From a virus, in IMG/VR virus record IMGVR_UViG_3300044675_004686, positions 1 to 23,015 of that record: 23,015 bases of DNA. One strand, written 5' to 3'. The notes beneath the pieces are model-generated. The model did not search any database and was not told the DNA's origin. It was given only the letters and a program-made list of their open reading frames with translations. Shown in pieces: positions 1,031 through 22,533 of this stretch; position 1 is the stretch's first letter, and each line of letters opens with the position of its first letter. The translations under genes and the position numbers were made by a program.

Positions 1031-2860
1031 ATGTTCCCACGAATTCCCCCAAAAGCGCCTATCGGTTTCGACTACGAGACCAGTGGGCTGAATTATTGGC
1101 ACCCAGATTTTCGCGTCATTGGCGTCTCAGTCGCCGTTGGCCAAGAGGGTTGGTATTGGGATCTCCGGACCACCCCCAACGTTGTTCCATTCCTGCGTGA
1201 CCTATTGGTCAACCGGGTAGTCGCGGCACATAATGCCCAATTTGAAGTCCAGTGTACCCGAGTACTCGGAATTGACCCAAGAGGGGTTGACTGGTACTGT
1301 ACAATGGTCAATCAGTGCTTAATTGACGAGCACCTCATGTCTTACGCTCTCGCGTCTGTCGCCCGAGCCAACGGGATCGACACGAAGAAGGACGAGCACC
1401 TAGAGGCTATCCGAGCCGCGATGGGATGGAAAAACGCCGCCGAGGTACTCGCCCGGTTCTCCGAGGTACCTCCCGATATCGCCGCCCCCTACGGCATCTC
1501 AGACTCTCTCGACGCACTTCGGATCTACGAGAAGCACCTGCCCGAGATTCAGCGTCAAGACCTCCAGCGAGTGTCGAAGCTTGAAATGGACCTGCTCCCC
1601 GTATTGGCCGACATGTCTTGGCACGGGGTCCGTGTTGATCTGGAAGCAGCGCACGCCGCGATCCCAGCGTTGGATGCGAAAGAACTGGAGTTGCAGCGCG
1701 AAGTAGACGAGATCGTCGGCGTTCCGTTCAACGTCAACTCGTCACCCCAGATCCGCGACTTCTTCAAGCCCGAGCCAGTCAACCGCTTTCAATGGAAGTT
1801 GATCGACGGTACGCTCGTGGGACCGACAAAAGGCGGAAAAGGCCCATCACTGGACCAGAACGCGATGCGGGAAATTAAGCACCCGTTGGCCGCGAAGATT
1901 CTGGATCTCCGCAAGACGATCAAGCTCCGCGACACGTTTATCCGAGGCCACGTAATCGGGAGTGCAGATCCAGACGGGTACGTCCACACGTCGTTCAACC
2001 AGACCCGCAACGATGCGGACGCTGGGACTGTAACCGGACGGCTGTCTTCGACCGACCCGGCGCTGCAGCAGATCACCAAACGGGACAAAGGCAACGCGGC
2101 CATCCTTCGCGCCATGTTCATGCCCGACCGTGACCACACTTGGCTTTGTGCCGACTATTCTCAAGTCGATTTCCGCTGTGGTGCTCACCTCCAGAATGAC
2201 CCTGCTGTGATTGCCGCCTATCTGGAGAACCCAGCACTCGATTACCATCAAGTAGTCTCCGACATGACGGGGATCCCGAGGAATCCGGCTTACGCTGGCG
2301 CTCCGAACACGAAGCAGTTGAATCTCGGTCTGTCTTTCGGTGCTGGTCAAGGCAAACTCGGGTTCATGATGGGCATGCCGTACGAGGTGCGAGAGTACAA
2401 GGGTAAAATGCAGTACGTGCCGGGACCAGAGGCGGTGGCGGTATTCGAACTGTACCACCGGAAGCTCCCAGCGGTCAAGGAATTTATGAAGCGTGCCGAG
2501 AACGTGGCGAAAGAGTCGGGGTACGTTAAGACCCAGATCGGTCGTAGACTCAGGTTCCCGAGAGGGCTTGGAGCGCACAAGGCCGCTGGATTCCTATATC
2601 AAGCGTACGCGGCTGACATCCACAAGGCCGGGTTGATCATGGTGGACGCCGCAATCCGGGAAATGGGACTACCTGCACGACTGATGTTGTCAGTGCACGA
2701 TGAGATTGGCGTTTCGATGCCGATAGATGATGACGTGAAGAACGTGATTGTCAAGAACTATACCGACTTCAATAGTGAAGCTTCACCTATCCAGATGCGG
2801 GTGCCGATCGCGGCCAGCGCTGACTATGGTGTTAATTGGTATGAAGCAAGTAAAAACTGA
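1031..2860 (+). CDS. dpoZ: family A DNA polymerase with 3'-5' exonuclease, DpoZ type
   Basis: 609 residues. The N-terminal DEDD exonuclease domain shows Exo I D14/E16 in FDYETSGL, Exo II at N68-E72 (HNAQFE, with Glu where Asp is usual) and Exo III Y154/D158. The polymerase domain follows: TGRLSS, motif A DYSQVDFR (D375-R382), motif B around K428 (TKQLNLGLSFG) and motif C VHDE (555-558). There is no 5'-3' nuclease domain. Motifs A and B depart from E. coli Pol I: Asp for the Glu710 steric gate, Leu for Phe762, Phe for Tyr766, and no Arg four residues before the motif B Lys. The catalytic Asp residues of motifs A and C remain. It lies 14 bases upstream of purZ, and polymerases in this position are the DpoZ group that copies with dZTP. 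Its preference for dZTP is inferred from context. The ATG has no obvious Shine-Dalgarno sequence. Confidence 0.92.
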   Translation: MFPRIPPKAPIGFDYETSGLNYWHPDFRVIGVSVAVGQEGWYWDLRTTPNVVPFLRDLLVNRVVAAHNAQFEVQCTRVLGIDPRGVDWYCTMVNQCLIDEHLMSYALASVARANGIDTKKDEHLEAIRAAMGWKNAAEVLARFSEVPPDIAAPYGISDSLDALRIYEKHLPEIQRQDLQRVSKLEMDLLPVLADMSWHGVRVDLEAAHAAIPALDAKELELQREVDEIVGVPFNVNSSPQIRDFFKPEPVNRFQWKLIDGTLVGPTKGGKGPSLDQNAMREIKHPLAAKILDLRKTIKLRDTFIRGHVIGSADPDGYVHTSFNQTRNDADAGTVTGRLSSTDPALQQITKRDKGNAAILRAMFMPDRDHTWLCADYSQVDFRCGAHLQNDPAVIAAYLENPALDYHQVVSDMTGIPRNPAYAGAPNTKQLNLGLSFGAGQGKLGFMMGMPYEVREYKGKMQYVPGPEAVAVFELYHRKLPAVKEFMKRAENVAKESGYVKTQIGRRLRFPRGLGAHKAAGFLYQAYAADIHKAGLIMVDAAIREMGLPARLMLSVHDEIGVSMPIDDDVKNVIVKNYTDFNSEASPIQMRVPIAASADYGVNWYEASKN

Positions 2861-2874
2861 AAGGAAACTGTAAA

Positions 2875-3921
2875 ATGCCTCACAAAATCGATATGGTACT
2901 GGATTTCCAGTACGGTTCCACCGGAAAAGGCTTGATCGCTGGCTACCTTGCCAAGCGCAATAGCTACGACACTGCAATCTGTGCTTTCGCCACAAATGCG
3001 GGTCACACGTACATCGACGAAGAACGCGGTATTCACGTCATGACTCAGCAACTGCCAACGGCCATCACCAGCCCCTCAGTGCGGACAATTCTGATCGGAC
3101 CCGGATCCGCCATTCACCTGCAGACCCTGCAAGAAGAAATCGCCCGATACGCGCCTTTCCTCGAAGGCAAGCAGGTTCTGATTCACCCGCACGCTGCTGT
3201 AGTGGAAGATTATCATGCCGAGTTCGAAATGTCGGACGGTCGCACCAAGATGGGGTCGACCGCAAAAGGCGTGGGTGAAGCTTACATCGAGCGAATCCGC
3301 CGAAATCCCCAAAATCCGAATACGATCGGCCACAGGGTCTCGACAGCGGACGCTCTCTATGGTATGATCGCCACTCCAGAGGAGTACCGGGACGCTCTCG
3401 CCGCCGCCGAATCAGTGATCGTCGAAGGCGCTCAGGGCTATTCTTTATCAATGTACCACGGCCAATACCCATACACCACGTCACGCGACGTAACCCCATG
3501 GCAAGTGGCAGCAGATTGCGGGTTACCTTATCGTTGGGCTTCTTACATTCAGGTAATCGGCACGTTACGCACTTTCCCGATTCGGGTTAGCAATCGCGAC
3601 GGATCCTCTGGACCTCATTATCCCGACCAAGTGGAGTTGAAGTGGGAAGATATCGGCATTCAGCCAGAATTGACAACAGTGACCAAGCTACCGCGACGGA
3701 TCTTCTCGTTCAGCCAACAGCAACTGCAGGAAGCCTTGTTCCACTGTGGCGGCTATTGGAATACCCGGCTGTTCCTAAACTTCGCCAACTACGTGACCGA
3801 CAAAGAGTTGCTCACTGAAATGATCAAGATGATCGAGTCCCCCACCCGGATGAACATGAATAACGCCAAAGTGGCTTGGATCGGTAACGGTCCAGATGAT
3901 AAGGATGTGGTAGCGTTATGA
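2875..3921 (+). CDS. purZ: PurZ, 2-aminodeoxyadenylosuccinate synthetase
   Basis: 348 residues in the adenylosuccinate synthetase (PurA) fold, shorter than bacterial PurA (about 430). The N-terminal motif is QYGSTGKG (12-19) where PurA has QWGDEGKG: the catalytic Asp is Ser15 and the next Glu is Thr16. The Ser is the hallmark of phage PurZ, which joins aspartate to dGMP rather than to IMP. Other family motifs remain: NAGHT with H44, GSTAKG (127-132), VEGAQG (183-188), HGQYPYTTS, and LPRR (272-275). The product, N6-succino-2-aminodeoxyadenylate, would be cleaved by host PurB to dZMP and then phosphorylated by host kinases. AAGGA lies nine bases before the ATG. The gene overlaps mazZ by four bases (ATGA). 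Identification is strong because the key substitution and all three partner genes are present. Confidence 0.96.
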   Translation: MPHKIDMVLDFQYGSTGKGLIAGYLAKRNSYDTAICAFATNAGHTYIDEERGIHVMTQQLPTAITSPSVRTILIGPGSAIHLQTLQEEIARYAPFLEGKQVLIHPHAAVVEDYHAEFEMSDGRTKMGSTAKGVGEAYIERIRRNPQNPNTIGHRVSTADALYGMIATPEEYRDALAAAESVIVEGAQGYSLSMYHGQYPYTTSRDVTPWQVAADCGLPYRWASYIQVIGTLRTFPIRVSNRDGSSGPHYPDQVELKWEDIGIQPELTTVTKLPRRIFSFSQQQLQEALFHCGGYWNTRLFLNFANYVTDKELLTEMIKMIESPTRMNMNNAKVAWIGNGPDDKDVVAL

Positions 3922-4304
3922 ACCAAATCGAAATGGAACTCGACCTGACTATCGGGGATCTGGAAGTTGAAAACCGAATCCTTCGTGCCCGTAACCGCCG
4001 ACTCGAAGACGAGAACCCGCACGATATCGACGTGTTGTCGGGCACCGTGTTTCAATGGGCGAACGAGGCATTTCCACACCGTACTGACGCTAGTATGTTT
4101 CTCAAGATGTATGAAGAGATCGGTGAGGTAATCCGGTCCGGTGGTGACCGATTGGAAGTCGCCGACTTGTTCATCCTGATCCTCGATTATGCGAAACGTA
4201 AAAATATCGCACTCAGTGATGCGATCGGCGAGAAGCTGGAAATTAACCGCAACCGTGACTGGAAGCTGAACGCTAACGGCACAATGAGCCACAAGGAGAA
4301 ATAA
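3918..4304 (+). CDS. mazZ: MazZ, MazG-like dGTP pyrophosphohydrolase
   Basis: 128 residues. The first 30 form a charged, probably coiled-coil helix. The MazG-type all-alpha NTP pyrophosphohydrolase core follows, with metal ligands in EEIGE (E66, E67, E70) and EVADL (E80, D83). A KxxxNxxRxW signature (K106, N110, R113, W115) sits near the C-terminus. In characterised Z-DNA phages MazZ converts dGTP (and dATP) to the monophosphate, which supplies dGMP for PurZ and lowers competing nucleotides. Its ATG overlaps the purZ stop and there is no well-spaced Shine-Dalgarno site, so translation is probably coupled to purZ. Two bases separate it from datZ. Activity on dGTP is inferred from family and position. 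Confidence 0.92.
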   Translation: MNQIEMELDLTIGDLEVENRILRARNRRLEDENPHDIDVLSGTVFQWANEAFPHRTDASMFLKMYEEIGEVIRSGGDRLEVADLFILILDYAKRKNIALSDAIGEKLEINRNRDWKLNANGTMSHKEK

Positions 4305-4306
4305 TC

Positions 4307-4846
4307 ATGGATGACTTTCGCGTAGATGTAGATATCGATCCGGGACTGGAAGCAGTGACTCGATTCCAGTCGATCAAACGTTGGCATATGATCGACACCA
4401 CCCGCACGCAGTCGATCGCTGAGCATTCGGCGAATGTGGCACTACTGGCCTACCATATCAGTATCACCGCCCCGGCAGGATACTTCGGTTCTGGAGAGGC
4501 TGCGCTGGCCCCAGCACTGTTCCATGATTTGCCTGAAGTATTTTGTGGCGACATTCCGACCCATACGAAAAAGCATCTAACTGGTTTAAAGGAGTTAGAA
4601 GAGCGCTTGACGCCCCCGGAATTCCGATATGAGGTGGATGAAAAAATAGCCGCCTTGGTTAAGCTCTGCGATCTCGCGGACGGAATCCGGTTCATCGAGC
4701 GTTATGGCGTGGATCGAGTCGCCATTTTTGCTACTGACGGACTACGCATCCAGATGTCAGCCAAATTATTACGTGCTCGTGCAGCTTGGCCAACGCACGT
4801 GTTCGAACACGTTAACGACAAAATCCAGACCTACGTGTCTCAATGA
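4307..4846 (+). CDS. datZ: DatZ, HD-domain dATP triphosphohydrolase
   Basis: 179 residues, close to cyanophage S-2L DatZ and to the YfbR-like HD hydrolases. The metal-binding set is complete: H40 in SIAEHS, H73-D74 in LFHDLPE, and D122 in LCDLADG. The conserved GDIPTHTKK segment follows the HD pair. DatZ removes triphosphate from dATP, keeping adenine out of the phage DNA while dZTP accumulates. AAGGAG at 4293-4298 precedes the ATG by eight bases, the best ribosome binding site in this operon. The stop overlaps the next ATG (ATGA). A general dNTPase role cannot be excluded from sequence, but the position beside purZ and mazZ makes DatZ the clear choice. Confidence 0.94.
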   Translation: MDDFRVDVDIDPGLEAVTRFQSIKRWHMIDTTRTQSIAEHSANVALLAYHISITAPAGYFGSGEAALAPALFHDLPEVFCGDIPTHTKKHLTGLKELEERLTPPEFRYEVDEKIAALVKLCDLADGIRFIERYGVDRVAIFATDGLRIQMSAKLLRARAAWPTHVFEHVNDKIQTYVSQ

Positions 4847-5301
4847 ACAAGCTGGAACTCGAATTCCGCAAACGCTTGTGCGACAAAATGGCAGGTCGCT
4901 GGCTCGTGGCCATTCACGTGGAAAACCACCTGAATCCGGGAGTCCCCGACTTGTCTTATGTGATGCTGGACCAGTTCAAGCCGATCTACGAAACTGGATG
5001 GCTTGAACTCAAGGCAGCTGAACATCGAGCGGTTCCAAAATTCGAGGTGGAACCCTCCCAACATAACTGGATGCGACGCTATGCCCACCGTGTCCCTACG
5101 CATTTTTTGGTCTTGGTCGGTACGCGATGCTACCTGCTAGACGGAAAAGTACACTCACTCTTGATCGGATCAGTGACACTGGAACAGTTACAGGAGTGGG
5201 CGATAGTGGCGTTTGAAGAACAAGAATTAATACAGACGCTCCCAATAATTTTAAAGGGTTTGACCCAGAGGGGTGATGATGGAACTGAAAGAGTTATATA
5301 A
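4843..5301 (+). CDS. VRR-NUC-like PD-(D/E)XK nuclease
   Basis: 152 residues with the motifs of VRR-NUC/PD-(D/E)XK phage nucleases: GVPD at 33-36, WLELK with E55 and K57, and a downstream Gln in PSQHNW (Q73). Such proteins are small endonucleases, and some relatives resolve branched DNA. It overlaps datZ by four bases and the primase-helicase by about 23, and its start lacks a clear Shine-Dalgarno site, so it is translated as part of the operon. Likely roles are resolving replication or recombination intermediates, or degrading host DNA; the sequence does not decide between them. It is not part of the known Z pathway, but it must act in a cell that holds both A-DNA and Z-DNA. Confidence 0.85.
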   Translation: MNKLELEFRKRLCDKMAGRWLVAIHVENHLNPGVPDLSYVMLDQFKPIYETGWLELKAAEHRAVPKFEVEPSQHNWMRRYAHRVPTHFLVLVGTRCYLLDGKVHSLLIGSVTLEQLQEWAIVAFEEQELIQTLPIILKGLTQRGDDGTERVI

Positions 5302-7840
5302 AGACGTAAAACCTGCAGTGATGATCAAGTCGGCGCTAGACTTGATCCACGAGCCGGGAGAGGTCTTTGAAGTGCGGATTCCCAAGACAAAAGCGGGAAC
5401 ATTGAGCGGATACTTTAACGACACGTCGAAAGCCGCACTCGTGTTGGCGCGAGAAAACGGGAAGCACCAAGCGATTTACGCGACTGTGAATCCGGTGAAG
5501 CCGTCACTGATGGCCCGGATGGAGAATCAAATCGGGATTTCACATACGACCACGACGGACAGCGAGATTGAGCGTCGTCGTTGGTTCCTGCTTGACTTCG
5601 ACCCGGTACGCCCTACGGGGATTTCGTCAACAAATGGTGAATTGGCGATGGCTGAGGATGCCGCGATCCGGACCGCCGAATGGCTGACAAGTCTGGGATG
5701 GCCAGAACCGATCCATGCAGCTAGCGGCAACGGTTGGCACCTGATGTACCGGATCGACGAGCCGAACGATGATGCGACAAAAATCGACATCGAATTCGCC
5801 ACTAAGATGCTGTCTTCGATCTTTACAGACGATAAAGTACAGGTCGACACCAGCGTCCACAATGCGTCACGGATCTGGAAAGTCTACGGTACAGTCAGCA
5901 GCAAGGGATCGCACACTTCTGAACGCCCCCACCGGGTCGCCAGCCTCGCGAAAGTCCCGAACGTACTCGGGATCGTGACAACAGCACAGATCGAAAACAT
6001 TGCCCGTGCTCTTCGTGATGCAAAATCCGAAGAATACAAGGACATGACGGGCGAGTATATCGGTGACATGTCCAAATGGCTGACCGATCGCGGCCAAACC
6101 GTTGTGAGTGGTCCACGTCCGATGTTCGGTAATGAGGGCCAGAAGTGGTTGCTCTCGAAATGCGCATTCGATGCAAACCACCAGACCCCAATGGTCGGTC
6201 TGGTCAACAATCGTCCCGTCTACCGTTGCCTCCACAATTCCTGCTCCTCTTATCGTTGGAAAGAATTTCGCGAGAAGATCGATCCTAACTACAAAGATCC
6301 GGACACGATTTTCGCCCGACTGAAAGAATGGTGCGACAGCGACAGCGAGAAGCCCGATGCCGAATTGCTCCAAGCCGCCAGCGCCACCGGAAAGCAGTTA
6401 TCAGGTATCATCAAGAAGGTGGCCAAGCTCTGTACCCGAGCACGAGTTCACGCACTGGAAGGATTCCTGAAAGAGGAGCGCCGCCGATTTCTGAAAGAGA
6501 CAATCGGGGAAAATAACGAGAAAGGCAACTTGGTTGGCCTGATCAACCGTACCCGAGAAATGCAAGAAGCCGGGGACGTTCCGATGTACTGGATCGCGGA
6601 CTACGATCACCGGATCCGATGCGGAAAAGTAGGAGACGTGACAAGCCCGAAATCATCTGAGGCGGAAGAAATTGCGTTGATGGTAAAGTACCATTCGCTC
6701 GGAGACTCGTGGGTCAAGCAGACGCACACGGCACAAGTAATCAAATTCCTCGCAGAATCCTATCGGGTCAACCCGCTGAGAGCATTCTTGAAGGCGAAGC
6801 GCTGGGATGGCTTGGAACGTCTGACGACATGGCTCCCGCACTACATGGGAACCAAAGATGATGAATATACCCGTGCCGTTGGCCGCAAATGGCTGATTTC
6901 TGCCGTTGCTCGTGCTATGGAACCCGGTTGTCAGGCGGACCATATGTTAATTTTCGAAGGTCGTCAAGGCGTCGGTAAATCGCGTGCCGCACGAATCGTC
7001 GGGGGGCAATTTTATACGGAATTCTCAGGTACAGTACACGGCAATACCGCCATGAAAGACTTGGTGGCCGCAATCAGTGGAAAAGTCGTGGTCGAAATGT
7101 CGGAATTGGCGACTATGCGACGTGCCGAGATCGAGTCATTGAAGGCTATCTTGACCACCACAGTGGATGACGTGCGATTGAGCTACGAACGCGACGTTAA
7201 ATCCTACCCCCGTACCTGCGTGTTTATCGGTACTACGAATGAATTGGGTGGAAGCTACATTGCCGACGCTACAGGCGCTCGTCGATTCTGGCCAGTGGCG
7301 GTCGCGATGGAGGGACCAGTTAAGACCAAGCAATTGGAAGAGGATGTTGATCAACTATGGGCCGAGGCGGTCGAGGCGTACGAGAATCACGAAGATTGGT
7401 TCACGGTCCCACGAGAACTGGCTATGATGGAACAGGCGGACCGCCAAGTCACTGTGGAGGACGCCGAACCTTGGTACCCACGGATCCGTAACGCTCTGAC
7501 AGATCCGGACAGTTTTGCTGAAGTGTTCCATGTCCGGGACGAGTACATGTCGGGTCAAAAGACCGGGGGATTCACCGTGCGTGCCGGGTCGTTTAGTGCG
7601 ATCCTCAGCGTCATCATTGGACTGGAACCAGCGCGACAATCCGGGATCGACGTAATCCGGGTCCGCAAAGTGTTGGAGACGATCGGGTTCAAGAAAATGC
7701 GGCCATCAAAGGGATGGCATGGGTCGAGTTACGCGTACGATCTGTCCCGCGAATCTCAACCCCACCTATGGCCAGCCGTCATTGCGGCCAAGAACGCCCT
7801 CAAATTCCCGAAGCACACTCGGGAAGAAGAGGAATCTTGA
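5279..7840 (+). CDS. primase-helicase: AEP-like primase, zinc site, VapE ATPase
   Basis: 853 residues. The frame is open from GTG 5273, but ATG 5279 has the best spacing (seven bases) from GAGG at 5268-5271; ATG 5276 is also possible. The N-terminal part resembles an archaeo-eukaryotic primase/primase-polymerase: LLDFDP with D106 and D108, SGNGWHL (149-155), and NASRIWKVYGT (195-205). A zinc site follows (C295, H301, C317, C322), typical of phage primase-helicases. The C-terminal half is a VapE-type P-loop helicase domain: Walker A GRQGVGKS (561-568), acidic EMSE (606-609), sensor CVFIGTTN (647-654) and DATGARRFW. It probably primes and unwinds the phage origin with the family A polymerase. 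It is the last gene of the + operon, and its stop touches the stop of the opposing endolysin gene. Confidence 0.9.
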   Translation: MELKELYKDVKPAVMIKSALDLIHEPGEVFEVRIPKTKAGTLSGYFNDTSKAALVLARENGKHQAIYATVNPVKPSLMARMENQIGISHTTTTDSEIERRRWFLLDFDPVRPTGISSTNGELAMAEDAAIRTAEWLTSLGWPEPIHAASGNGWHLMYRIDEPNDDATKIDIEFATKMLSSIFTDDKVQVDTSVHNASRIWKVYGTVSSKGSHTSERPHRVASLAKVPNVLGIVTTAQIENIARALRDAKSEEYKDMTGEYIGDMSKWLTDRGQTVVSGPRPMFGNEGQKWLLSKCAFDANHQTPMVGLVNNRPVYRCLHNSCSSYRWKEFREKIDPNYKDPDTIFARLKEWCDSDSEKPDAELLQAASATGKQLSGIIKKVAKLCTRARVHALEGFLKEERRRFLKETIGENNEKGNLVGLINRTREMQEAGDVPMYWIADYDHRIRCGKVGDVTSPKSSEAEEIALMVKYHSLGDSWVKQTHTAQVIKFLAESYRVNPLRAFLKAKRWDGLERLTTWLPHYMGTKDDEYTRAVGRKWLISAVARAMEPGCQADHMLIFEGRQGVGKSRAARIVGGQFYTEFSGTVHGNTAMKDLVAAISGKVVVEMSELATMRRAEIESLKAILTTTVDDVRLSYERDVKSYPRTCVFIGTTNELGGSYIADATGARRFWPVAVAMEGPVKTKQLEEDVDQLWAEAVEAYENHEDWFTVPRELAMMEQADRQVTVEDAEPWYPRIRNALTDPDSFAEVFHVRDEYMSGQKTGGFTVRAGSFSAILSVIIGLEPARQSGIDVIRVRKVLETIGFKKMRPSKGWHGSSYAYDLSRESQPHLWPAVIAAKNALKFPKHTREEEES

Positions 7841-8278
7841 TCAGGCGAACGGGCGAGTTCCCGCTTTATCGATGATTAACGCTTGCTTGCGTGGAGCGTT
7901 GGAATCGGTATTCGGGATACTCACGTGCGTCCAGCGGTCGAATTCCCGGATTACTTGATCATAGCCGATACCGCTAGCGATAATGGCTTTCACCACTTGA
8001 TCAGGAGTCATCCCCGGCACACGAATATCGGCGGCACAACCGATTCGGTGTTGACTGGTGTCCCTGCTTCCCACGGCGTCATTCACCTTCTTGGATCGGA
8101 AGGCACTGTTGATCATGACAGGTTTGTTACCCAGCACCACTTTGACCTGCTCCAGAAAGTCAGCCAGTCGAGTGAGGTTGGCAAGTTCTGTGTCATTGGG
8201 ACTATTATCCCATCCATTGCGTTCGGCGGTCTCCGATACGGTCAGTTCGTCGAGTGTAAAATGTGGTGTCAAGTTCAT
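7841..8278 (-). CDS. endolysin, M15-type peptidase
   Basis: 145 residues of the peptidase M15_3 (VanY/D-Ala-D-Ala carboxypeptidase-like) type. Zinc ligands are visible in SQHRIGCAAD (H77, D84) and in WTHVSI (H118), with the SAFRS segment (R61) ahead of them. It would cleave peptidoglycan peptides at the end of infection. There is no signal peptide, so it needs a holin for export. AAGG lies eight bases before the ATG, and the start overlaps the holin stop by four bases. It is the last gene of the - strand block. The family is usual in phages of Gram-negative bacteria. Confidence 0.93.
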   Translation of the reverse strand: MNLTPHFTLDELTVSETAERNGWDNSPNDTELANLTRLADFLEQVKVVLGNKPVMINSAFRSKKVNDAVGSRDTSQHRIGCAADIRVPGMTPDQVVKAIIASGIGYDQVIREFDRWTHVSIPNTDSNAPRKQALIIDKAGTRPFA

Positions 8279-8685
8279 TTGCGTGCCTTCATGTCCATGA
8301 TTTTCTCAAGAGTGCGTCCACCAAAGTAGAACGACATGATCAACATGCCCCACTGCCCGAGTAGTTCGACATACTTTTCGTTAGCACTCATCCCGTAGGC
8401 AGACATCATCGCGAAGATAAAATAAGCCAATAGGATGAAGATCAACGTCATGGGTCTGATGTTCTTGGACAGCCAAGAATCACTACTCATATCGGCTTTG
8501 AGGCGATCGGTCAGGTTGTTTTGTTCCGTCTTGAAAAGGTCAGTTTCGTTGGCCATCTTCGCCAATTCACCATCTTGTACCATCTTCGCCAGTTCAAGGT
8601 GCGCTTTAGCTTTGGCCTCTGGGTCAGGTATAAGTTTATCGACGAGCTTTTCGCCGATACCTAAGAGTGCTGCGAGTGGGAACAT
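8275..8685 (-). CDS. holin, 3-TM phage holin family
   Basis: 136 residues. A hydrophobic or amphipathic N-terminus (FPLAALLGIGEKLVDKL) is followed by a charged helical stretch (22-75) and two clear membrane segments near 78-98 (TLIFILLAYFIFAMMSAYG) and 107-123. This matches the 3TM phage holin / gene-transfer-agent holin family. It would permeabilise the inner membrane and release the endolysin encoded immediately downstream, with which it shares ATGA. AAAGG precedes the ATG by about seven bases. The family call rests on topology, position and the SKNIRPMTL segment. Confidence 0.85.
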   Translation of the reverse strand: MFPLAALLGIGEKLVDKLIPDPEAKAKAHLELAKMVQDGELAKMANETDLFKTEQNNLTDRLKADMSSDSWLSKNIRPMTLIFILLAYFIFAMMSAYGMSANEKYVELLGQWGMLIMSFYFGGRTLEKIMDMKARK

Positions 8686-8688
8686 GAT

Positions 8689-9108
8689 TCAACCTTTCGA
8701 TGTGGTGATCTGGTCATCGCCTTTTGTGACCGTGACTTTTTCGCCCTCGACTGTGACTTTCATTGGCTGCTCTTTGCGATCCAGTTTATCCAGCTTGTCG
8801 ATCAGTTGCTTCATGACCTCAAATTCGGGCTTTTCCTGCTTGGCGTTCGCCCCAGCGATGCCGTTGAGCATCGAAATCAAAGCAGTGAGTGACGCACCTA
8901 AAAGACCCATGACAGCCGCGATTTTGTCTTTATCTAGTACGAGACTGGACGCGACGCCAATAGTGACAATCAGGGTAATATAGAACAGACCATGCTTACC
9001 AATCGCGCGACCTGCTACGTCCTTAGCCGGAGAATTCGCCTCCAACTTATTCAGTTCGACTCTGGCTTGCGCCTTGATCAACTCGATTTGGTGTAGTTGT
9101 TCATTCAT
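8689..9108 (-). CDS. two-TM membrane protein of the lysis group
   Basis: 139 residues. A soluble helical N-terminus (1-38) is followed by two adjacent membrane segments at about 40-58 and 63-86 and then a charged C-terminal tail with a short beta-prone KVTVEGEKVTVTKG segment. I do not recognise a specific family. Position between a small one-TM protein and the 3-TM holin suggests a second holin, an antiholin or a holin regulator. It is not a recognisable spanin, because it has neither a single N-terminal anchor with a long periplasmic coil nor a lipobox. It overlaps the upstream small gene by four bases and ends three bases before the holin start. Confidence 0.75.
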   Translation of the reverse strand: MNEQLHQIELIKAQARVELNKLEANSPAKDVAGRAIGKHGLFYITLIVTIGVASSLVLDKDKIAAVMGLLGASLTALISMLNGIAGANAKQEKPEFEVMKQLIDKLDKLDRKEQPMKVTVEGEKVTVTKGDDQITTSKG

Positions 9109-9284
9109 TTAAGTATCCAGACAGCAGAAAAAATTGTTCCGGCCATAGACAGGATCATGACACCAGCGGTCTTGAGCATGATGCCTTCGATCCGTTTTAG
9201 ACGCGCATTAATCTGATCGTACCTGATAGCGCAAACCTCTTCGTGTGTCGAGAGTCGTGCCTCAGTTGCATCGATTGTCGTCAT
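9105..9284 (-). CDS. 59-residue one-TM protein, XhlA-like
   Basis: Reading the - strand from ATG 9284-9282 gives 59 residues ending in TGA at 9107-9105. The N-terminal 36 residues are polar and helical (MTTIDATEARLSTHEEVCAI, then RYDQINARLKRIEG), followed by one membrane segment (VMILSMAGTIFSAVWIL) at the C-terminus. This amphipathic-helix-plus-TM plan is that of hemolysin XhlA-like proteins found in lysis cassettes, although sequence similarity was not tested. It starts one base after the upstream gene's stop and shares ATGA with the next gene, so it fills an otherwise empty gap exactly. Confidence 0.75.
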   Translation of the reverse strand: MTTIDATEARLSTHEEVCAIRYDQINARLKRIEGIMLKTAGVMILSMAGTIFSAVWILK

Positions 9285-9285
9285 T

Positions 9286-9639
9286 TCAAAGGCCTTGCCC
9301 CGGCGTCACGTAGACGGTAGCGGCTGCGCTAGACAAGCCACTGAAGTATGTGTCCTGATTGAAGCGCAAGATTTCAACTGCACCAGGAATCAGCACAATG
9401 GCCGCTGAAGGCGTACCGGCGACAGGAGCTACAGCATTGGCCGTAGCTTCTGTTGCGCTCGCGCCAGTGCCCAAGAACACCGTGGTGCTGCCTGCATTGA
9501 TGAAACGATACTGGCCTGTATTCTGTGGGTCAAACTTTGCATAGACAGGTGCTTGGATACCAGCAGGTGCAGTGCCTGCGGCAGCAACGACAACAGTTTT
9601 TCCAAGTGGGGTGAATGCAATTTGTGAATTGGTGGACAT
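9286..9639 (-). CDS. small Ala/Thr-rich protein, unknown
   Basis: 117 residues from the ATG at 9639. The frame is open seven codons further, but AAAGGAG at 9646-9652 lies six bases before ATG 9639 and fixes the start there. The protein is rich in Ala, Val, Thr and Gly with repeated beta-strand-like stretches (TVVVAAAGTA, AAIVLIPGAVEILRF, AATVYVTPGQG) and no TM or enzyme motif. A small beta-sandwich virion or decoration protein would fit, but no family is recognised. It lies between the tail fibre genes and the lysis genes, two bases after the preceding stop. Confidence 0.75.
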   Translation of the reverse strand: MSTNSQIAFTPLGKTVVVAAAGTAPAGIQAPVYAKFDPQNTGQYRFINAGSTTVFLGTGASATEATANAVAPVAGTPSAAIVLIPGAVEILRFNQDTYFSGLSSAAATVYVTPGQGL

Positions 9640-9640
9640 G

Positions 9641-9898
9641 TCAGACTCCTTTGCTTTCAAGTGCTTTCATTTGCGCAGCATATGCTGAGATCACTTCATG
9701 AGTATGTGCGGCAGTGCAGATTGCCTGCACCCTCACATCTTCTTGGCTGTAATCTTTGCCTGGCGCAATTGAGTGACGATGGTATGCAGTGCTGATTACA
9801 GCACCGTTCTCAATGATTTTTGTTGCCGTTCTTACTTGAACAACACCATTTTCAGTGACTTCAATTTGGTCGATGACCACAAGTTTTTCGAGTGCCAT
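9641..9898 (-). CDS. small conserved-looking protein, unknown
   Basis: 85 residues from ATG 9898, which is preceded by AAAAGGAAAAATC, a good ribosome binding site; the frame is open 11 codons further upstream to ATG 9931, but that would overlap the upstream gene without a better site. The sequence runs from MALEKLVVIDQIEVTENGVV through HRHSIAPGKDYS to a helical C-terminus. The N-terminal beta-hairpin with a repeated V/I pattern recalls small proteins encoded after tail fibre genes in many phages. Function is unknown. Confidence 0.75.
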   Translation of the reverse strand: MALEKLVVIDQIEVTENGVVQVRTATKIIENGAVISTAYHRHSIAPGKDYSQEDVRVQAICTAAHTHEVISAYAAQMKALESKGV

Positions 9899-9915
9899 GA
9901 TTTTTCCTTTTAGAT

Positions 9916-10446
9916 TCAAACAGAGTAGCAACCAGAGAATTGAACAATCGCAGAAACATCGTATGCAACACTGCCAGTGCTGACGCCAGATGCACCTAGA
10001 CCAATTGGTGTTTCTTTGAAATTCAAAGCAGTTCCTGCGGCCTCAAGACTTACAGTGGTATTGACTGAATAAGATAAGTCGTTGACAAAATCAATTCCTA
10101 AACAATCACCATTTGCCGCAGAAAATGGAAGCCCTGCAATTTTTAGATTCCCAGTTCCAGTTCCGGTATTCCAGCCAACAATCCCATACACATGAACGAG
10201 ACGGCCAACTTTCGTGTACCGAGCAATCTGGAGTGAATACGATGCCGTGCCTGCCGATGTTGATCCTTCAATCGTCGGTGTCCAAGTTCCCTCTTCGTAA
10301 TCATCCAGCAACTCGCTAGTCATCCCAGGAGCGCTTGGATCAGATGAAAAATCTATGCCTTTGCCTGCCGTCCCAATAACAAGATTGCCATCAATGATGG
10401 TTTGATCGCCATAGCGAAGAGATGGGTTTCCTACTGTTTTCAACAT
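9916..10446 (-). CDS. small tail-fibre-like protein
   Basis: 176 residues. Residues 47-58, LLDDYEEGTWTP, followed by YTKVGRLVHVYG, form a motif common in phage tail fibre and tailspike modules. The rest is beta-rich with many Gly, Ser and Thr and a short N-terminal GDQTIIDGNLVIGTAGKGI segment. It lies three bases after the tailspike stop, with GGAG eight bases before its ATG, so both are made together. It may form a separate short fibre or an added receptor-binding domain on the tail. The family is reasonably clear; its role is an inference. Confidence 0.8.
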   Translation of the reverse strand: MLKTVGNPSLRYGDQTIIDGNLVIGTAGKGIDFSSDPSAPGMTSELLDDYEEGTWTPTIEGSTSAGTASYSLQIARYTKVGRLVHVYGIVGWNTGTGTGNLKIAGLPFSAANGDCLGIDFVNDLSYSVNTTVSLEAAGTALNFKETPIGLGASGVSTGSVAYDVSAIVQFSGCYSV

Positions 10447-10449
10447 GAT

Positions 10450-12702
10450 TTATGCTCCTGCTTTCAGTGCGTCGATCTCGGCCTTCAACTCTTGAACAGC
10501 CTTCATCAACATTGGGATAAATACGCTCATTTTGACTGACTTGGTGGTAGTGCCAAGAGCCACGCGCTCAACGTACTTTTCTACCTCGTCTTTTTCATTG
10601 ATGCGTTCTTTTTCAACGTACTCGAAGTCTTCGGCTTCTTCGACCAAAGACGGGAACACCTGCTCCAGTTCCTGAGCGATGACACCAAGTAACTTCTGCT
10701 CAGGATTGGTCTTAAGGTTGTAGTTGACCAAGCGAACTTGACACAGACGGTCAAGATAACTAGGTGCATCGACCACGTTCTCTTTCAGCTTTGCGTCCGA
10801 GATCGTGCCATAGCTGCCAGTGACGTTCACCACGTTGCCGTTAGACCACACCTTAAAACGGTCATTGCCAAGTGAAGTAGCAAGGATGAAATACTGCGTG
10901 GTGTTGTTTGGGTCAGCAACGGAGTTGTACAGGATGACACCGTTCGGAGATGCGCTGGCGTTGTGAAACTGAGCAACAGGGAATGTGCTGTTGGACTGGT
11001 TCAGTTCATGATACGCACCATCCGGGTCAATGTAGGTCGCGTCAACATCGCTGGCCTTCAAAAAACCAGCCGGGTTGATGCGAACATTCTCGTCACCAGT
11101 CGTGCCGAGCTTCAAGATGCCAGCAGGGTTTGGAGCATTGATCCATCCGCTGACGTTGGGGTCAACACCGATCTCCAACTCCAACTCGTTGTCACGCCAC
11201 CAGCGCATACGAGACTTGCCTTTGCCAAGTGCGCCAGAGCCTTTGAAGTTGAAATCTGCAGCAGTGGCATTGCCGATGAACGTGTTTCCGCGAGAGCCGC
11301 CACCAGCAAAGAAGTTCGCAACTTCTTCATTGAACGATGCGCTCCCGCTATCCACCAAAACCGGGCCATTGATGAAGTTGTTGCTCGAAACGATGTTGGC
11401 ATAAACCAGATCGTAGATCGAGGCAACGCCAGCAAGGAAACGAACGGCTGCAAACAGGGGCGATCCACCAACCCAACTGATGTTGGTGTTGATCAAGTGC
11501 CAATTGATGACGCCGGTCTTGATGTAAATGCCGGTGCTGTTTGTGAACCCGTTGATGGTGCAACTGTTCAACATGATGTTGGTGGTGTCATCAGTGCCAC
11601 CACCCAACTCCACGTTGGCATAAGTTGCGTAATCCGTCGTGCCGTTGTTCTCGATGTAGCAACCACTCAGGTCAATGAACGATGCGCGTGTCGGAACATA
11701 CGGTGCAGACAGCGGAACAGACTTGATGATGACACCCTGCGTTCCGTTGTTTTCGATACCACCAGTGACGCGTATGCCAGTGCCCGACAGAATCGCCAGC
11801 CCGTGGCCGTCGTTGTGGGTGCAGTTGATGTTCAAAAGCTCCCAGTTGTTGGCTTCGCTGATCAGCGTGACACCATTGCCAGAGTTGTAGTCAACAGACA
11901 GGTTTTGCACTCCGCATGACCAGCCGCGCCAGTGTTTCAGGCCGTCTTGCAAAGTTCCAGTGACGCGAACGTCTGTGATGAAATTTGGAGAAATTTCAAC
12001 GCTACTGGAAATGCCAATGTCAGCTTTGCTGTCTCCATCAATGGTGAAGCCGCGCAACTCAATGTCACGGATTACGAACGCAACAGTTGTGGGATCGCCT
12101 TGAATGTTCAAAAATTTATTGACGGGGACTCCGGCCTTCAAAATTGTATGAGCCTGGCCAGCGCCAACGATTGAGACTCCAACACGATTAATCAGAATGC
12201 TACTAAGGAGATAAGTTCCTTCTGGAATATAAATTCTGTCGTTCGCAGCAAGGGCAGCAGCAAAAGCAGCAGTGTCATCTGCCAGGCCATCTCCAACAGC
12301 GTTATATGGAGCATTTTTGACGTTTACATAGCCTTGCAATGCAAGGCCAACAGAGCCTTGTGGATAGTTTGCATTTTGAGCAAAACTAATCCATCCAGCA
12401 TCGTATCGTTCAGTGGCATATGGCGCTGAATACACTAGGCTGCCTTTGCTGTTTTGAACTCGAATGCTGTAGTCGCTATTGACATACAGGCGTGCAGGCG
12501 TGCCACTGCGTGAAGGGTAGCCATTGAGTGTGCGAATTGGCTGTGGTGCTGAAATTGTCAGTGCAGCGTCCCAGTACAAATTGATGGGGTTACCTTGTGG
12601 GTCAAGATTGGCCGCGCCAATCCAGATGTAACCGTTCTCCAATGGCAAGCCGTCCGTCTCTGTGAAGATCGGGTATGTTGGTTGAATGCTGAGTGCTGAC
12701 AT
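10450..12702 (-). CDS. tailspike: P22-like head-binding, beta-helix, S74 chaperone
   Basis: 750 residues. Residues 1-100 (FTETDGLPLENGYIWIG ... GTPARLYVNSDYSIRVQ) match the N-terminal particle-binding domain of P22-type tailspikes. A pectate-lyase-3-like entry strand follows at 128-170 (YNAVGDGLADDTAAF, IYIPEGTYLL) and leads into a right-handed beta-helix to about residue 480. The C-terminus carries SDAKLK (635-640), then a peptidase S74 intramolecular chaperone domain and a terminal coiled coil; this domain normally cleaves itself off just before the Ser once the trimer has folded. The protein binds the tail and recognises, and probably cuts, surface polysaccharide; the substrate cannot be told. 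AGGAG precedes the ATG, which follows the previous stop with no gap. Confidence 0.93.
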   Translation of the reverse strand: MSALSIQPTYPIFTETDGLPLENGYIWIGAANLDPQGNPINLYWDAALTISAPQPIRTLNGYPSRSGTPARLYVNSDYSIRVQNSKGSLVYSAPYATERYDAGWISFAQNANYPQGSVGLALQGYVNVKNAPYNAVGDGLADDTAAFAAALAANDRIYIPEGTYLLSSILINRVGVSIVGAGQAHTILKAGVPVNKFLNIQGDPTTVAFVIRDIELRGFTIDGDSKADIGISSSVEISPNFITDVRVTGTLQDGLKHWRGWSCGVQNLSVDYNSGNGVTLISEANNWELLNINCTHNDGHGLAILSGTGIRVTGGIENNGTQGVIIKSVPLSAPYVPTRASFIDLSGCYIENNGTTDYATYANVELGGGTDDTTNIMLNSCTINGFTNSTGIYIKTGVINWHLINTNISWVGGSPLFAAVRFLAGVASIYDLVYANIVSSNNFINGPVLVDSGSASFNEEVANFFAGGGSRGNTFIGNATAADFNFKGSGALGKGKSRMRWWRDNELELEIGVDPNVSGWINAPNPAGILKLGTTGDENVRINPAGFLKASDVDATYIDPDGAYHELNQSNSTFPVAQFHNASASPNGVILYNSVADPNNTTQYFILATSLGNDRFKVWSNGNVVNVTGSYGTISDAKLKENVVDAPSYLDRLCQVRLVNYNLKTNPEQKLLGVIAQELEQVFPSLVEEAEDFEYVEKERINEKDEVEKYVERVALGTTTKSVKMSVFIPMLMKAVQELKAEIDALKAGA

Positions 12703-15075
12703 TTATTCTTTCTCCTGTTCTTCGGGGACTGATACCCGCTGCTCAGCAGCAAGGCTGGACATCAAGCGTTTGACAAGTGCAGCTTCTTCAGCGCTACCCG
12801 CTTTCGTACGTGGGATCTGCATCAAGAGGTTACGAACGGGGGCCGATTCGTAGAGTCGGGCAGCGCCGCCGACAGTACCCATCAAAGCGCCAGTCGTAAC
12901 CGCGCCCGACAGTCCACCTTGCAAACCACCAGCACCTACACCAAGCATCGCATAAAAATTCTGGACGCCAGAAGGTGGAAGGAGTGCAGCTTCGGAGGCA
13001 CGACGAGTCGTGTTAATTACACGGGATAAGCCTTGAATTCGATTGAGGTCATCGCCTGAAAAGAAGATGTTGATCGACTTGCCGAGATCTTTGACCTGTG
13101 TCGCGAATCGCTCAGGACTCACGTCACCGTTCTTGCTAGCTTTCTCGAATGCCCGAGCGATGATCGCTGAACGAGCGTTCGCACGACCCTCGGGGGTTAG
13201 GCCACGGTAGAGTTGGGCTACTTCACTTGGTTTCGAACTGAAAAGCAATCGATTGACGGTCTCGGGCACTAATTTACCTTCACCGAGCACCGATTTCAGT
13301 GTGGCAAGCTTCAGATCACCACTCATTTCTTCTAATCGGTTGTTAGCGACTTTCCATTTCATGTAATCACGACGATCGCCGTTTTGCTGAATAAAGTCAC
13401 CCATGTCGTCAGTCAGCGATTTATAAACATTCGAGACGACTTTGTCACCGATACCGCGAATGTTGGTCAACTCGGGGGCTTTGAAGCTCTGGCTCAACTG
13501 CTTTCGCAGCAACTCCACGTTCACCAGATCTTGACCTTGGATCGACGCTTTCCAGTCGCGCAAAATATTGATCGCTGGCTGCATTTGCTCCGAGCGCATT
13601 CCAGATAGTGTGGCGATTTCGTTATCAATTGCATTTACGGTACGACCAACTTCCACGGCTTTGCCGGACACATCGTCCACCATGACTTGGCCGAGTTGCC
13701 GCTTCTCCACAGCCGCCGTATTAGCTTCGTCAATTGCTTTGCGGTACTCGTCAATCCGAGTGTTCAAGCGGTCGATCCGTTGTTGGCCAGCCCAGCCGAG
13801 GTCACGCTTCGTTAGGTTGTTAACGCGATTCACAAGATTCGCTTGGTCAGCGTACAGCTTGCCAGCTTTCTGTGTCAATTCGTCCGCCTCGTCGATCATT
13901 TTCTGGCCGAGCACTGCGTTGGACTGAGCGCGAGAGATCTTGCCAATCACTTCTTCTTTCGCGCCGACATATTTCGTCAGGTCGTCGCCACGCTTGGTGG
14001 CCAGATCCTTCATGATCTTGGTCGACAAGATTTGCGGATCGTCGATACCAAAATCCGATGCAACGTCTTTGACCGCTTGAATCCGCTGCTCTTGCTGTTG
14101 TTGGCGCACTGGTCCGGTACCGACCAACGGGATTCGCTCCCCGATGGTCTGCAGCCATTTGGAGGCAAAAGTACGAGGAGGCACCACGTCCGAGGTCATA
14201 ACCCGAACTCCGGCACGCTCCGCCTCCGCCAGATCCGAGGGGAGTTGAACGGGGGCACGGGGAGCCACGGCACGAGCACCCGCCATACCGCCGCCGATAC
14301 CCGCGACGACCTGTCCGACAGGTCCGAGACCCGCCTCCTGTGCCATCTGGCTAGCAGCACCCGCTCCAGCACCGCCAGCGACTTGGGCCACAGGCTGAGT
14401 GGCCAACATTCGACCGACTTCGCGAGTCACAGGAGCGGCAGCACCTGCAGCGGCTTGGATAGCTTTACCCGCCCCGACGAATCCCCCCGCCCCGGCAGCA
14501 CCTGCAGCAGTCGATTGAACGATTCGTTCCGCTTCTGTCTTCGGTTGTGCGACACCAATACGGGTCAGCAAGTCTTCCATCGCCTGAGTCGGCAACGTAT
14601 ACTTGGTCCCGAGCATGCTATTGATAGTGCTGACGATCGGATCACCAAGTGTTGTAGCCAGAGCACCAGCGCCAGCACCCGCGATCGCTCCGGGGATAGC
14701 CCCGACGCCACCCACGGGAGCGCCGAGCATAGCCCCGAGCGCCGCTCCCCCGGCCACGGGAGCCACGCCACGAGTGATCGCGCCCATCAGCCCGGTCGCA
14801 GTAGTCTGGGGGCCAGCGGCTGAAGTGTCCTCGACCACTGGAGTAACACCGGGAGTCGCAGGTTGTGGTTGTTCAACGGGGGCTTGCGCTTCAGCACCCG
14901 GAAAACGCACATCGACCGCCACGCCACGACCCTCAGGGGTCTGGACGTTGAACGTCTGAGCACGCTGAGCGAAGGCGGCTTGAGCCGCTTGCCCGATTTG
15001 CTCTGGAGTCGCACCCTCTGGCCCCTCAATATTGAGGATAGTACCGTCAGGAGCTTGGATTTTATAAATTTTCAT
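12703..15075 (-). CDS. large ejection protein in gp16 position
   Basis: 790 residues. The N-terminus (MKIYKIQAPDGTILNIEGPE, then GATPEQIGQAAQAAFAQR) is a small module common at the start of phage internal virion proteins. A Pro-rich linker (60-90) follows. Two Gly/Ala-rich hydrophobic segments, near 95-150 and 195-275, could insert into membranes. The remainder is mostly helical, with coiled-coil potential around 350-560. I see no lytic transglycosylase motif. P22 gp16 occupies the same position after gp20 and before the tailspike, and is ejected into the cell to help DNA cross the envelope, but this protein is longer (P22 gp16 is about 610). The role is from synteny and composition. Confidence 0.8.
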   Translation of the reverse strand: MKIYKIQAPDGTILNIEGPEGATPEQIGQAAQAAFAQRAQTFNVQTPEGRGVAVDVRFPGAEAQAPVEQPQPATPGVTPVVEDTSAAGPQTTATGLMGAITRGVAPVAGGAALGAMLGAPVGGVGAIPGAIAGAGAGALATTLGDPIVSTINSMLGTKYTLPTQAMEDLLTRIGVAQPKTEAERIVQSTAAGAAGAGGFVGAGKAIQAAAGAAAPVTREVGRMLATQPVAQVAGGAGAGAASQMAQEAGLGPVGQVVAGIGGGMAGARAVAPRAPVQLPSDLAEAERAGVRVMTSDVVPPRTFASKWLQTIGERIPLVGTGPVRQQQQEQRIQAVKDVASDFGIDDPQILSTKIMKDLATKRGDDLTKYVGAKEEVIGKISRAQSNAVLGQKMIDEADELTQKAGKLYADQANLVNRVNNLTKRDLGWAGQQRIDRLNTRIDEYRKAIDEANTAAVEKRQLGQVMVDDVSGKAVEVGRTVNAIDNEIATLSGMRSEQMQPAINILRDWKASIQGQDLVNVELLRKQLSQSFKAPELTNIRGIGDKVVSNVYKSLTDDMGDFIQQNGDRRDYMKWKVANNRLEEMSGDLKLATLKSVLGEGKLVPETVNRLLFSSKPSEVAQLYRGLTPEGRANARSAIIARAFEKASKNGDVSPERFATQVKDLGKSINIFFSGDDLNRIQGLSRVINTTRRASEAALLPPSGVQNFYAMLGVGAGGLQGGLSGAVTTGALMGTVGGAARLYESAPVRNLLMQIPRTKAGSAEEAALVKRLMSSLAAEQRVSVPEEQEKE

Positions 15076-15078
15076 CCT

Positions 15079-16530
15079 TTACCCCGGAATCAATACAAAC
15101 CCGCCACCGAGAGGAGTACCACCACGGCCACCACCTGCAGGAGGAGCGGCTGGTGTTGGAGTACCCCCACCCGCTGGAGCACCACCACCAAATCCGAACT
15201 TCGAAGCGTTCGGGTAAGCAGCGGCTTTCTTCATGATACCGGTATAGATCTTTTCCAGACGATCAAGGTTACGAATGATGTCCGCGTCCTTCTGGTTCAG
15301 ATCAATAGAACCCAGCACGCTCTGCAAGAATTTCAATTCCTGTTCGGTGATGTTACCAAGAGCGCCGCCTGTTGGAGATTCCATCCGCATCTGGTTCAAG
15401 CGATCAAAACCGATGTTAGCCTGAATTGTTCGGACCAAGCCTTCAGCGGACCTTCGGGCAGAACCAGCAGCAAGAACACCACCTTGTTCTCCTACAACCG
15501 CACCAGCCGTTCCAGTAATCGGGTCTACGATTTTCTGCTTTTTAATATCGTTCCGTAACTTTTTCACATCATCCAAAACGATCGTCGACGCTGTGACTGC
15601 AGATTCAGCAGCAGCAGCACCTTTGCCAGCAGCGGCTTCCAATTCACGAGCCGTTTTCGATCCGGGGATCACTTCCATGGCGACTGGCTTGTTGCCATCG
15701 TAGGTCATCCGGTAATCCGGGGGGATCGACCCGATCTGGGGAGGCAGGTTGACCGTAACCCCGCCACCACCGACAGCAGTGATTTTGCCAGTATTAATAT
15801 CCTTCTGGTAAGTGTTTCCAGCCGGGAGGCCCATCGTTTTTGCATTGGCTGGAGTCAGGATTTCGAAGCGCTCACCAGTTGTACCTGTTGCACCTAGAGA
15901 CTCGATTTTACCAGTCTTCGTATTGCGTTGGTAAGTGTTGCCAGCCGGGAGGCCCAGAGTCTTGACCTTTTCGGGAGTTATGACTTCAAAGCCTTCAGTC
16001 GCCTGAACACCAGTCGCATCAGCGATCTTCTTAAACTTGTCAGGATTCAAAACCGCCAGCGCGAAATTGGTACCAGACTGAGCGCCTTTGATATCGCCCG
16101 ACTTCAGCGATTCACGGATCTGTTCGTAGATACCGACAGGCTGTTTCGAATTCTTGCGTGCTTCGATGATTACGTCAAGCTCTGCAGAAGCAGCATCAAC
16201 GTTACCTTTCTCCAGTGCGTTTGAAACTTTAGCTCCGGAAAAGAATTCATTATCAACACGCTCTTGGCCGTACATCTTCGACGCGTCACCGAACGCCTCC
16301 CGGAATTGGGGGTACTTGGTGATCATGTTCGCCCAAGTCGATTGGGTCGGGTTAGCCTGAGCAGCGGCCAGATCCGCCGCGAGTTGCTGCTTCATTTGAG
16401 CGGCCTGTTGAGCGGCCTCTCGCTTTTCTTGCATTTCACGGATGCCGACACCGAGCCTCAATCCCTCACCCAAGCTTTGCGCTAGGTTGACCTGAGGAAT
16501 CTGAGCCATATAGTTAATAGGTTGTACCAT
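15079..16530 (-). CDS. probable ejection protein in gp20 position
   Basis: 483 residues, similar in length to P22 gp20. The first 75 residues are helical and Ala/Gln-rich. Two copies of a 41-residue module occur near the middle, each with LTP or ITP, GLPAGNTYQ and TGKI in order. A Gly/Pro/Ala-rich tail ends VLIPG. GAGG lies seven bases before ATG 16530; ATG 16509 is a weaker alternative. No enzyme motif is present. P22-like order (gp7, gp20, gp16) and the predicted long helices support an internal virion protein released with the DNA. Similarity to gp20 itself was not tested. Confidence 0.78.
   Translation of the reverse strand: MVQPINYMAQIPQVNLAQSLGEGLRLGVGIREMQEKREAAQQAAQMKQQLAADLAAAQANPTQSTWANMITKYPQFREAFGDASKMYGQERVDNEFFSGAKVSNALEKGNVDAASAELDVIIEARKNSKQPVGIYEQIRESLKSGDIKGAQSGTNFALAVLNPDKFKKIADATGVQATEGFEVITPEKVKTLGLPAGNTYQRNTKTGKIESLGATGTTGERFEILTPANAKTMGLPAGNTYQKDINTGKITAVGGGGVTVNLPPQIGSIPPDYRMTYDGNKPVAMEVIPGSKTARELEAAAGKGAAAAESAVTASTIVLDDVKKLRNDIKKQKIVDPITGTAGAVVGEQGGVLAAGSARRSAEGLVRTIQANIGFDRLNQMRMESPTGGALGNITEQELKFLQSVLGSIDLNQKDADIIRNLDRLEKIYTGIMKKAAAYPNASKFGFGGGAPAGGGTPTPAAPPAGGGRGGTPLGGGFVLIPG
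15781..15993 (-). repeat. tandem in-frame repeat, 123-base period
   Basis: The segment 15781-15870 matches 15904-15993 at an offset of 123 bases (41 codons), including the shared run GCCAGCCGGGAGGCCCA. The two copies encode FEILTPANAKTMGLPAGNTY and FEVITPEKVKTLGLPAGNTY followed by Q-x-x-x-x-TGKI. Differences are scattered and mostly silent or conservative, which points to an old duplication kept as a protein module. Confidence 0.85.
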
Positions 16531-16539
16531 AGTTTAGCC

Positions 16540-17283
16540 TCAGCCGAAAATGGAACCGCTTGGGCGAAGACCTTGGCCACCACCCATATAACCCAAATTG
16601 GGAGCACCAGCACCAGCAGCAGCACCAACGGGAGCGCCACCGCCACCACCACCAAACCCTTTCATCGCACCAGCAATCGTTCCGCCAATCTGCAACAAAT
16701 CTCCAAAAGTTTGTCGGGCCACGCCACCCTGAGCAAGCTGTCCGCCAGCCATTGCCGCACCCTGTTGACCAAAAAGATTGGCCACGTTCGCGCCGAGCGT
16801 TTGACCCGCTGCTGCTTGACCCGCTGCTGCGTTCTGGCCCATGGTCGTCAAACCACCGAGCCTAGAATACTGTTGGTTGATCAAATCACTGAGGAGTTGG
16901 GGACGGAATTGAGCGAGTGCGGCCTGAACGTTACCTCCACGCAGACCGCCAGTAGCAGCAGCTTGCTGAAGAATAGCTCTTTCGCCTTGCTGGGTCATGG
17001 CCTGAAATTGTGGGGAACCTTCGATCCCGGCGATCGCTTGCTGTTGTGCCTCAGCGCCGCCGAGTCCGAGCAAGGCTTGTTGGCCACCAAGAGCACCAGT
17101 ACCCGCCGTAACATAGGGGGCCATCAATTCGACGAATTTATCGAATTGACGACGCTGCTCTTCAATGCCCTGTTGTGCTGCAGCGGATTGAGTAGCTCCC
17201 GCACGCTCCGCTGCTTTTCCAGCTTGTTTTGCTCCGGTGATACCACCGAAGACATCGCCGATTAAGTCACCGACAAAACTCAT
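16540..17283 (-). CDS. probable DNA transfer protein in gp7 position
   Basis: 247 residues from ATG 17283, chosen because GGAG (17290-17293) lies six bases upstream; the frame runs 23 codons further but without a better site. The N-terminus MSFVGDLIGDVFGG is followed by a helical, Gln- and Ala-rich body (EEQRRQFDKFVELMAPYV, GQQALLGLGG) and a Gly-rich tail. This plan is typical of phage DNA transfer / internal virion proteins, and P22 gp7 (about 229 residues) holds the same place. It shares ATGA with the GNAT-like gene upstream. The gene is secure; the function rests on composition and synteny. Confidence 0.8.
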   Translation of the reverse strand: MSFVGDLIGDVFGGITGAKQAGKAAERAGATQSAAAQQGIEEQRRQFDKFVELMAPYVTAGTGALGGQQALLGLGGAEAQQQAIAGIEGSPQFQAMTQQGERAILQQAAATGGLRGGNVQAALAQFRPQLLSDLINQQYSRLGGLTTMGQNAAAGQAAAGQTLGANVANLFGQQGAAMAGGQLAQGGVARQTFGDLLQIGGTIAGAMKGFGGGGGGAPVGAAAGAGAPNLGYMGGGQGLRPSGSIFG

Positions 17284-18481: not shown

Positions 18482-18483
18482 GA

Positions 18484-19896: not shown

Positions 19897-19899
19897 GTT

Positions 19900-20163: not shown

Positions 20164-20166
20164 GGC

Positions 20167-21351: not shown

Positions 21352-21371
21352 GAGAATCTCCTTATATGGAA

Positions 21372-21827: not shown

Positions 21828-21836
21828 GACTGTTCC

Positions 21837-22513: not shown

Positions 22514-22533
22514 AGCTCACTCCTATACTAGAA

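Follow-up and report, generated by a model that had tools for sequence, protein, structure and literature searches.

Does the uncultured phage represented by this DNA replace the adenine of its genome with 2-aminoadenine (Z), and does it package such a genome in a P22-type particle? The DNA is an IMG/VR record of 23,015 bases, a phage fragment whose whole length is referred to here as the window. Its genes dpoZ, purZ, mazZ and datZ constitute the phage half of the known 2-aminoadenine pathway, and we consider it very probable that this phage has a Z-for-A genome in a P22-type particle.

Organisation of the locus

The genes in and around the cassette are as follows.

163–930, + strand: Pam3 gp34-like protein, a replication-module neighbour (PF23977, 5e-58)
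1031–2860, + strand: dpoZ, 609 aa, phiVC8-type family-A DNA polymerase with a 3'-5' exonuclease domain (NF038380)
2875–3921, + strand: purZ, 348 aa, dGMP:aspartate ligase (succino-amino-deoxyadenylate synthase; NF038379, 6tnh, tree)
3918–4304, + strand: mazZ, 128 aa, (d)GTP diphosphohydrolase of the MazZ-1 type (sequence and fold match to 7ody)
4307–4846, + strand: datZ, 179 aa, HD-domain dATP triphosphohydrolase (phrog_7076, 1.6e-23; sequence and fold match to 6zpa)
4843–5301, + strand: nuclease/helicase-family gene (phrog_2165, 3.7e-16)
5273–7840, + strand: VapE-type helicase/primase protein, last gene of the rightward operon (PF05272, 5.5e-68)
7841–23013, − strand: lysis and P22-type virion module, comprising endolysin, holin, tail, ejection proteins, gp10, gp4 and the coat C-terminus

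The four Z genes lie head to tail on the + strand between 1031 and 4846, all with open frames. They are separated by 14 nt (dpoZ/purZ), −4 nt (purZ/mazZ) and 2 nt (mazZ/datZ); datZ overlaps the following gene by 4 nt, and the operon runs on past datZ to 7840. The initial annotation had taken this region for a complete four-gene Z cassette, and the curated models, the closest PDB entries, the fold predictions, the active-site residues and the PurZ tree all bear this out. Dozens of IMG/VR contigs have the identical dpoZ-purZ-mazZ-datZ order, which thus cannot be attributed to chance. Homologues of the upstream gp34-like protein are found in most characterised Z-phages (phiVC8, ZP6, SH-Ab 15497, PSA28, BUCT555, Bm1 and OH). 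The gene at 4843–5301 stands where phiVC8 and ZP6 have their VRR nuclease and is presumably its counterpart, an assignment based on its position.

The DpoZ polymerase and its exonuclease site

Against NF038380 (cut-off 500), DpoZ reaches 825.6 bits, and its best sequence match in the PDB is phiVC8 DpoZ (7pbk, 1.4e-90). The signatures of the phiVC8 clade, whose roles have been described (PMC8599892), are all kept, namely the equivalents of F459, L455, G548 and R440 together with insertion 2 (the helix-O insertion). The exonuclease residues, which are D26, E28 and D85 in phiVC8, correspond to D14, E16 and Glu72 in the window, the last (codon at nt 1244–1246) replacing the catalytic aspartate. 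This change from Asp to Glu in the exonuclease-II motif is seen in 16 of the 20 DpoZ proteins of the clade, including that of the window, and in none of the 60 from outside it, every one of which has Asp.

In phiVC8 DpoZ the D85A mutant retains its preference for dZTP, so that D26, E28 and D85 are not taken to determine this preference; exonuclease activity is lost in a triple mutant that includes D85A (PMC8599892). The Glu72 change therefore bears on the proofreading/backtracking model that has been proposed for how DpoZ prefers Z over A, and it offers a natural experiment on that question; the substitution could reduce proofreading.

MazZ and DatZ

The closest PDB sequences to MazZ and DatZ are both from cyanophage S-2L (7ody, 2.2e-12, and 6zpa, 4.7e-9, respectively). 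Models of the two proteins were built from the window and its relatives, with a mean pLDDT of 88.3 for MazZ and 87.5 for DatZ, and the same S-2L structures are the top PDB matches to the predicted folds (TMt 0.87 for MazZ on to 7ody).

The active sites support these assignments. The EExxE/ExxD motif claimed for MazZ is present as E66, E67 and E70 followed by E80 and D83, and the H...HD...D set claimed for DatZ as H40, H73-D74 and D122. MazZ, with all its metal ligands intact, also retains the equivalents of I56, D60 and R83 (an Arg), which have been tied to catalysis and guanine specificity (PMC8342488). In DatZ, all metal ligands are retained, as are the equivalents of E70 and D75 and those of R19, W20, K81 and K116, whose roles have been described (PMC8065100). 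Two base-contact positions differ from S-2L, with I22 replaced by Met and P79 by His; phiVC8 and ZP6 show variation at both as well.

An additional N-terminal stretch of ∼30 residues, predicted to be helical, is present in MazZ of the window (3918–4016) and of contigs L002 and L013, and is absent from S-2L MazZ.

The substitutions in the DpoZ exonuclease site and in the base-contact positions of DatZ are what might be expected if the cassette makes Z yet replaces A only in part, with a DpoZ or DatZ that is less selective in this lineage, and partial replacement is all that the three-gene S-2L cluster achieved in E. coli (PMC8342488). Exonuclease-knockout phiVC8 DpoZ nevertheless still prefers dZTP (PMC8599892), the DatZ substitutions fall at positions that are not constant among other Z-phages, and the four genes are all intact and conserved. 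We regard incomplete replacement as improbable, and complete A-to-Z replacement in this genome as the best inference from its genes.

PurZ is distinct from PurA

PurZ scores 311.5 bits against NF038379 (cut-off 300), with phiVC8 PurZ as its best PDB sequence match (6tnh/6fko, 1.9e-77). Ser15, which had been proposed to stand in place of the catalytic Asp of PurA, does align with PurA Asp13. Around the dGMP and the adenine nucleotide, 27 of the 28 contact residues described for S-2L PurZ (PMC8342488) are identical to S-2L or phiVC8, the exception being C204, which is Thr.

In a maximum-likelihood tree of 57 proteins, the window's PurZ falls in the PurZ group, separate from both PurA and PurZ0. 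Placement within the PurA clade would have told against the initial annotation; the protein instead lies far from PurA. It belongs to a clade of 16 rows with support of 100/100, made up solely of IMG/VR contigs, and this clade has no cultured member among those examined. PurZ does share a superfamily (PF00709) with PurA, and might on that account be an ordinary phage-borne PurA that boosts adenine supply beside general nucleotide-pool enzymes, but Ser15, the PurZ-specific contact residues and the position in the PurZ clade all contradict this, and an adjoining dATP-destroying enzyme and DpoZ-type polymerase would make no sense for adenine supply; we consider this reading very unlikely.

Genomes with cellular labels (L059–L067 and L070; Lachnospiraceae, Clostridia, Haloarchaea, Lokiarchaeota, a betaproteobacterial MAG and others) also have PurA-like genes in which Ser or Gly occupies the position of the catalytic Asp13. 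One of these, L062, sits on a long branch within the phage PurZ part of the tree. A scan of cellular genome contigs yielded distant PurA-like genes only, and no prophage or clue to the host.

A P22-type virion

The P22-type virion order noted at the outset is confirmed on the − strand, where the ejection proteins, a gp10-type closure protein, a gp4-type adaptor and the C-terminus of the coat protein are encoded. The coat C-terminus matches the P22 coat family at 1.6e-32, and the window ends before the portal. The complete P22 portal and coat are found in a relative with 97% PurZ identity, G001, a 39 kb contig that also encodes a terminase and an SNF2 helicase; with a 126-base overlap between its ends, it probably represents a complete genome.

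As a fragment that matches none of 50,697 phage records at the nucleotide level, the window could conceivably hold a decayed cassette or be a chimeric assembly of two phages, but this is scarcely credible given that every frame is open and that the independent contig G001, at 74-93% nucleotide identity, carries the same genes and the same P22 virion, as do further relatives.

The distribution of P22 capsid genes was examined in 50 records, comprising the window, 40 other IMG/VR contigs and nine named Z-phages. A P22 portal or coat scored above the cut-off in 14 IMG/VR records, the window included, and in none of the nine named Z-phages, BUCT555 giving one match below the cut-off. Many members of the window's PurZ clade have the P22-type portal and coat. 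Three contigs of 40-45 kb (L004, L078 and L083) belong to the same PurZ clade and are without P22 portal and coat. Among close PurZ relatives, some thus have P22 capsid genes and others do not, and we conclude that cassette and virion have been exchanged. PurZ is absent from the phages with the nearest P22-type virions among phage records (PfAn1, MW202867, MW202475 and VSN-002) and from 32 further contigs with a P22 portal. No integrase-family match was found in the window or in nine relatives.

In L048, the relative with a probably complete genome, the ∼5.7 kb that separate the terminase from the early genes (7140–12900) contain few convincing genes.

At least seven groups of Z-phages were recognised in a 2026 survey of publicly available viral genomes (PMC12884076). 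A P22-type Z-phage was not found in the literature searched, coverage of which was partial. None of the named Z-phages tested has the virion type of this Z system; the pathway itself is already known. The locus would extend Z-DNA chemistry to the P22-type virion.

Hairpins upstream of dpoZ

Two structured elements lie between the gp34-like gene and dpoZ.

949–981, + strand: leader hairpin with arms CCCCGC/GCGGGG and a loop containing the invariant GCAGTTGCC (962–970), followed by a T-run
983–1006, + strand: intrinsic-terminator-like hairpin with a 10 bp stem and a T-run; dpoZ begins after a further 24 nt

RNAfold gives −20.5 kcal/mol for 966–1015. The leader hairpin is found 5' of dpoZ in 19 loci of the clade and occurs once in the window and once in the relative with 97% PurZ identity. 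Across the clade the invariant loop motif is GCAGYTGCC, a T-run usually follows, and the stem covaries, its arms differing between members (CCCCGC, GCCCCCGGTG, CCCCATG, AGGCGCTGGGC and others) and yet still pairing. In other Z-phages, no hairpin of this kind upstream of dpoZ was seen to carry the motif. The control consisted of mononucleotide shuffles, which is a mild one, and loci L010 and L011 do not exceed the shuffles. We suggest that the hairpin is likeliest a putative attenuator or an autogenous operator bound by DpoZ.

No Rfam family matches anywhere in the window at the gathering cut-off. Assignment of the leader hairpin to the anti-hemB or Betaproteobacteria toxic sRNA families was rejected, the scores being ∼19-26 bits against cut-offs of 49.5-50 and the match lying largely in the terminator.

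Palindrome avoidance

In the window, 6-bp palindromes composed only of G and C are seen twice against 32 expected, and those that contain A or T are only mildly avoided. The same near-absence of GC-only palindromes with mild avoidance of A/T-containing ones was noted for L048–L058. As a Z-specific mark this contrast was rejected, because the non-Z phages MW202867 and Skarpretter are also without GC-only palindromes.

It is only in the relaxed A/T-containing set that the Z and non-Z groups separate. After dereplication, 44 Z loci avoid A/T-containing 6-bp palindromes less than do 14 P22-type non-Z controls (AUC 0.85, p 9e-5), and non-palindromic words show no difference between these two groups. 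Six further control genomes give an AUC of 0.77 (p 0.035), and all 20 controls together give 0.82 (p 3.5e-5), for sequences that are related and controls that are unmatched for host. Overlap with the Z range is seen for two temperate controls, APSE-1 and AH02, so that the shift is a group trend, and avoidance of GATC is inconsistent across Z-phages. The pattern fits a shielding of A-containing restriction sites by Z and supports the Z reading without proving it, and is not diagnostic for one genome. If host-matched tests uphold it, such a footprint would show both Z status and its protective value from sequence alone.

It is possible, though we put this forward only tentatively and think it rather doubtful as a whole, that the P22-type Z lineage is marked jointly by an altered DpoZ proofreading site, a clade-specific putative regulatory hairpin on dpoZ and a Z-protection footprint in which restriction-type palindromes remain depleted only if they have no A that Z could replace.

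Proposed pathway

The Z pathway is known from phiVC8, S-2L and SH-Ab 15497, and its steps have been characterised in homologues (PMC8342488, PMC8065100, PMC8599892, PMC12884076). By analogy, MazZ would convert (d)GTP to dGMP, which PurZ, using ATP or dATP, would join to aspartate, yielding dSMP; the adenylosuccinate lyase and kinases of the host would then complete dZTP. DatZ would destroy dATP, and DpoZ would copy the genome with Z opposite T. No matches to the PurB-type lyase, guanylate kinase or NDK families were found in the window or in nine relatives, and hence the host must supply these steps, as in known Z-phages. The Z-containing genome would be packaged in the P22-type particle and may be shielded from host enzymes whose recognition sites contain A.

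Comparison with known systems

Cyanophage S-2L shares the purZ-mazZ-datZ triad, and its MazZ and DatZ are the closest solved structures, but it has a PrimPol, no DpoZ and a different virion. Vibrio phage phiVC8 and Alteromonas phage ZP6 share dpoZ, purZ, datZ, the nuclease position and the upstream gp34-like protein; they differ in having a separate primase between dpoZ and purZ and a different virion, and phiVC8 has MazZ-2 where the window has MazZ-1.

The Acinetobacter phage SH-Ab 15497 and its relatives PSA28, Kokobel2 and PMBT28 share a phiVC8-type DpoZ and the order dpoZ, purZ, MazZ-1-type (DUF550) gene and datZ, with ∼35-46% identity to the window in PurZ and DpoZ. In the three examined, dpoZ and purZ are separated by a small gene, which encodes an ssDNA-binding protein in SH-Ab 15497, whereas the window has none; their MazZ is a longer fusion, and they have no P22 portal or coat. 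Conversely, Pseudomonas phage PfAn1 and the Manatee Spring phages MW202867 and MW202475 have no purZ and different replication genes, but share the P22-type virion, with portals 52-71% identical to that of G001.
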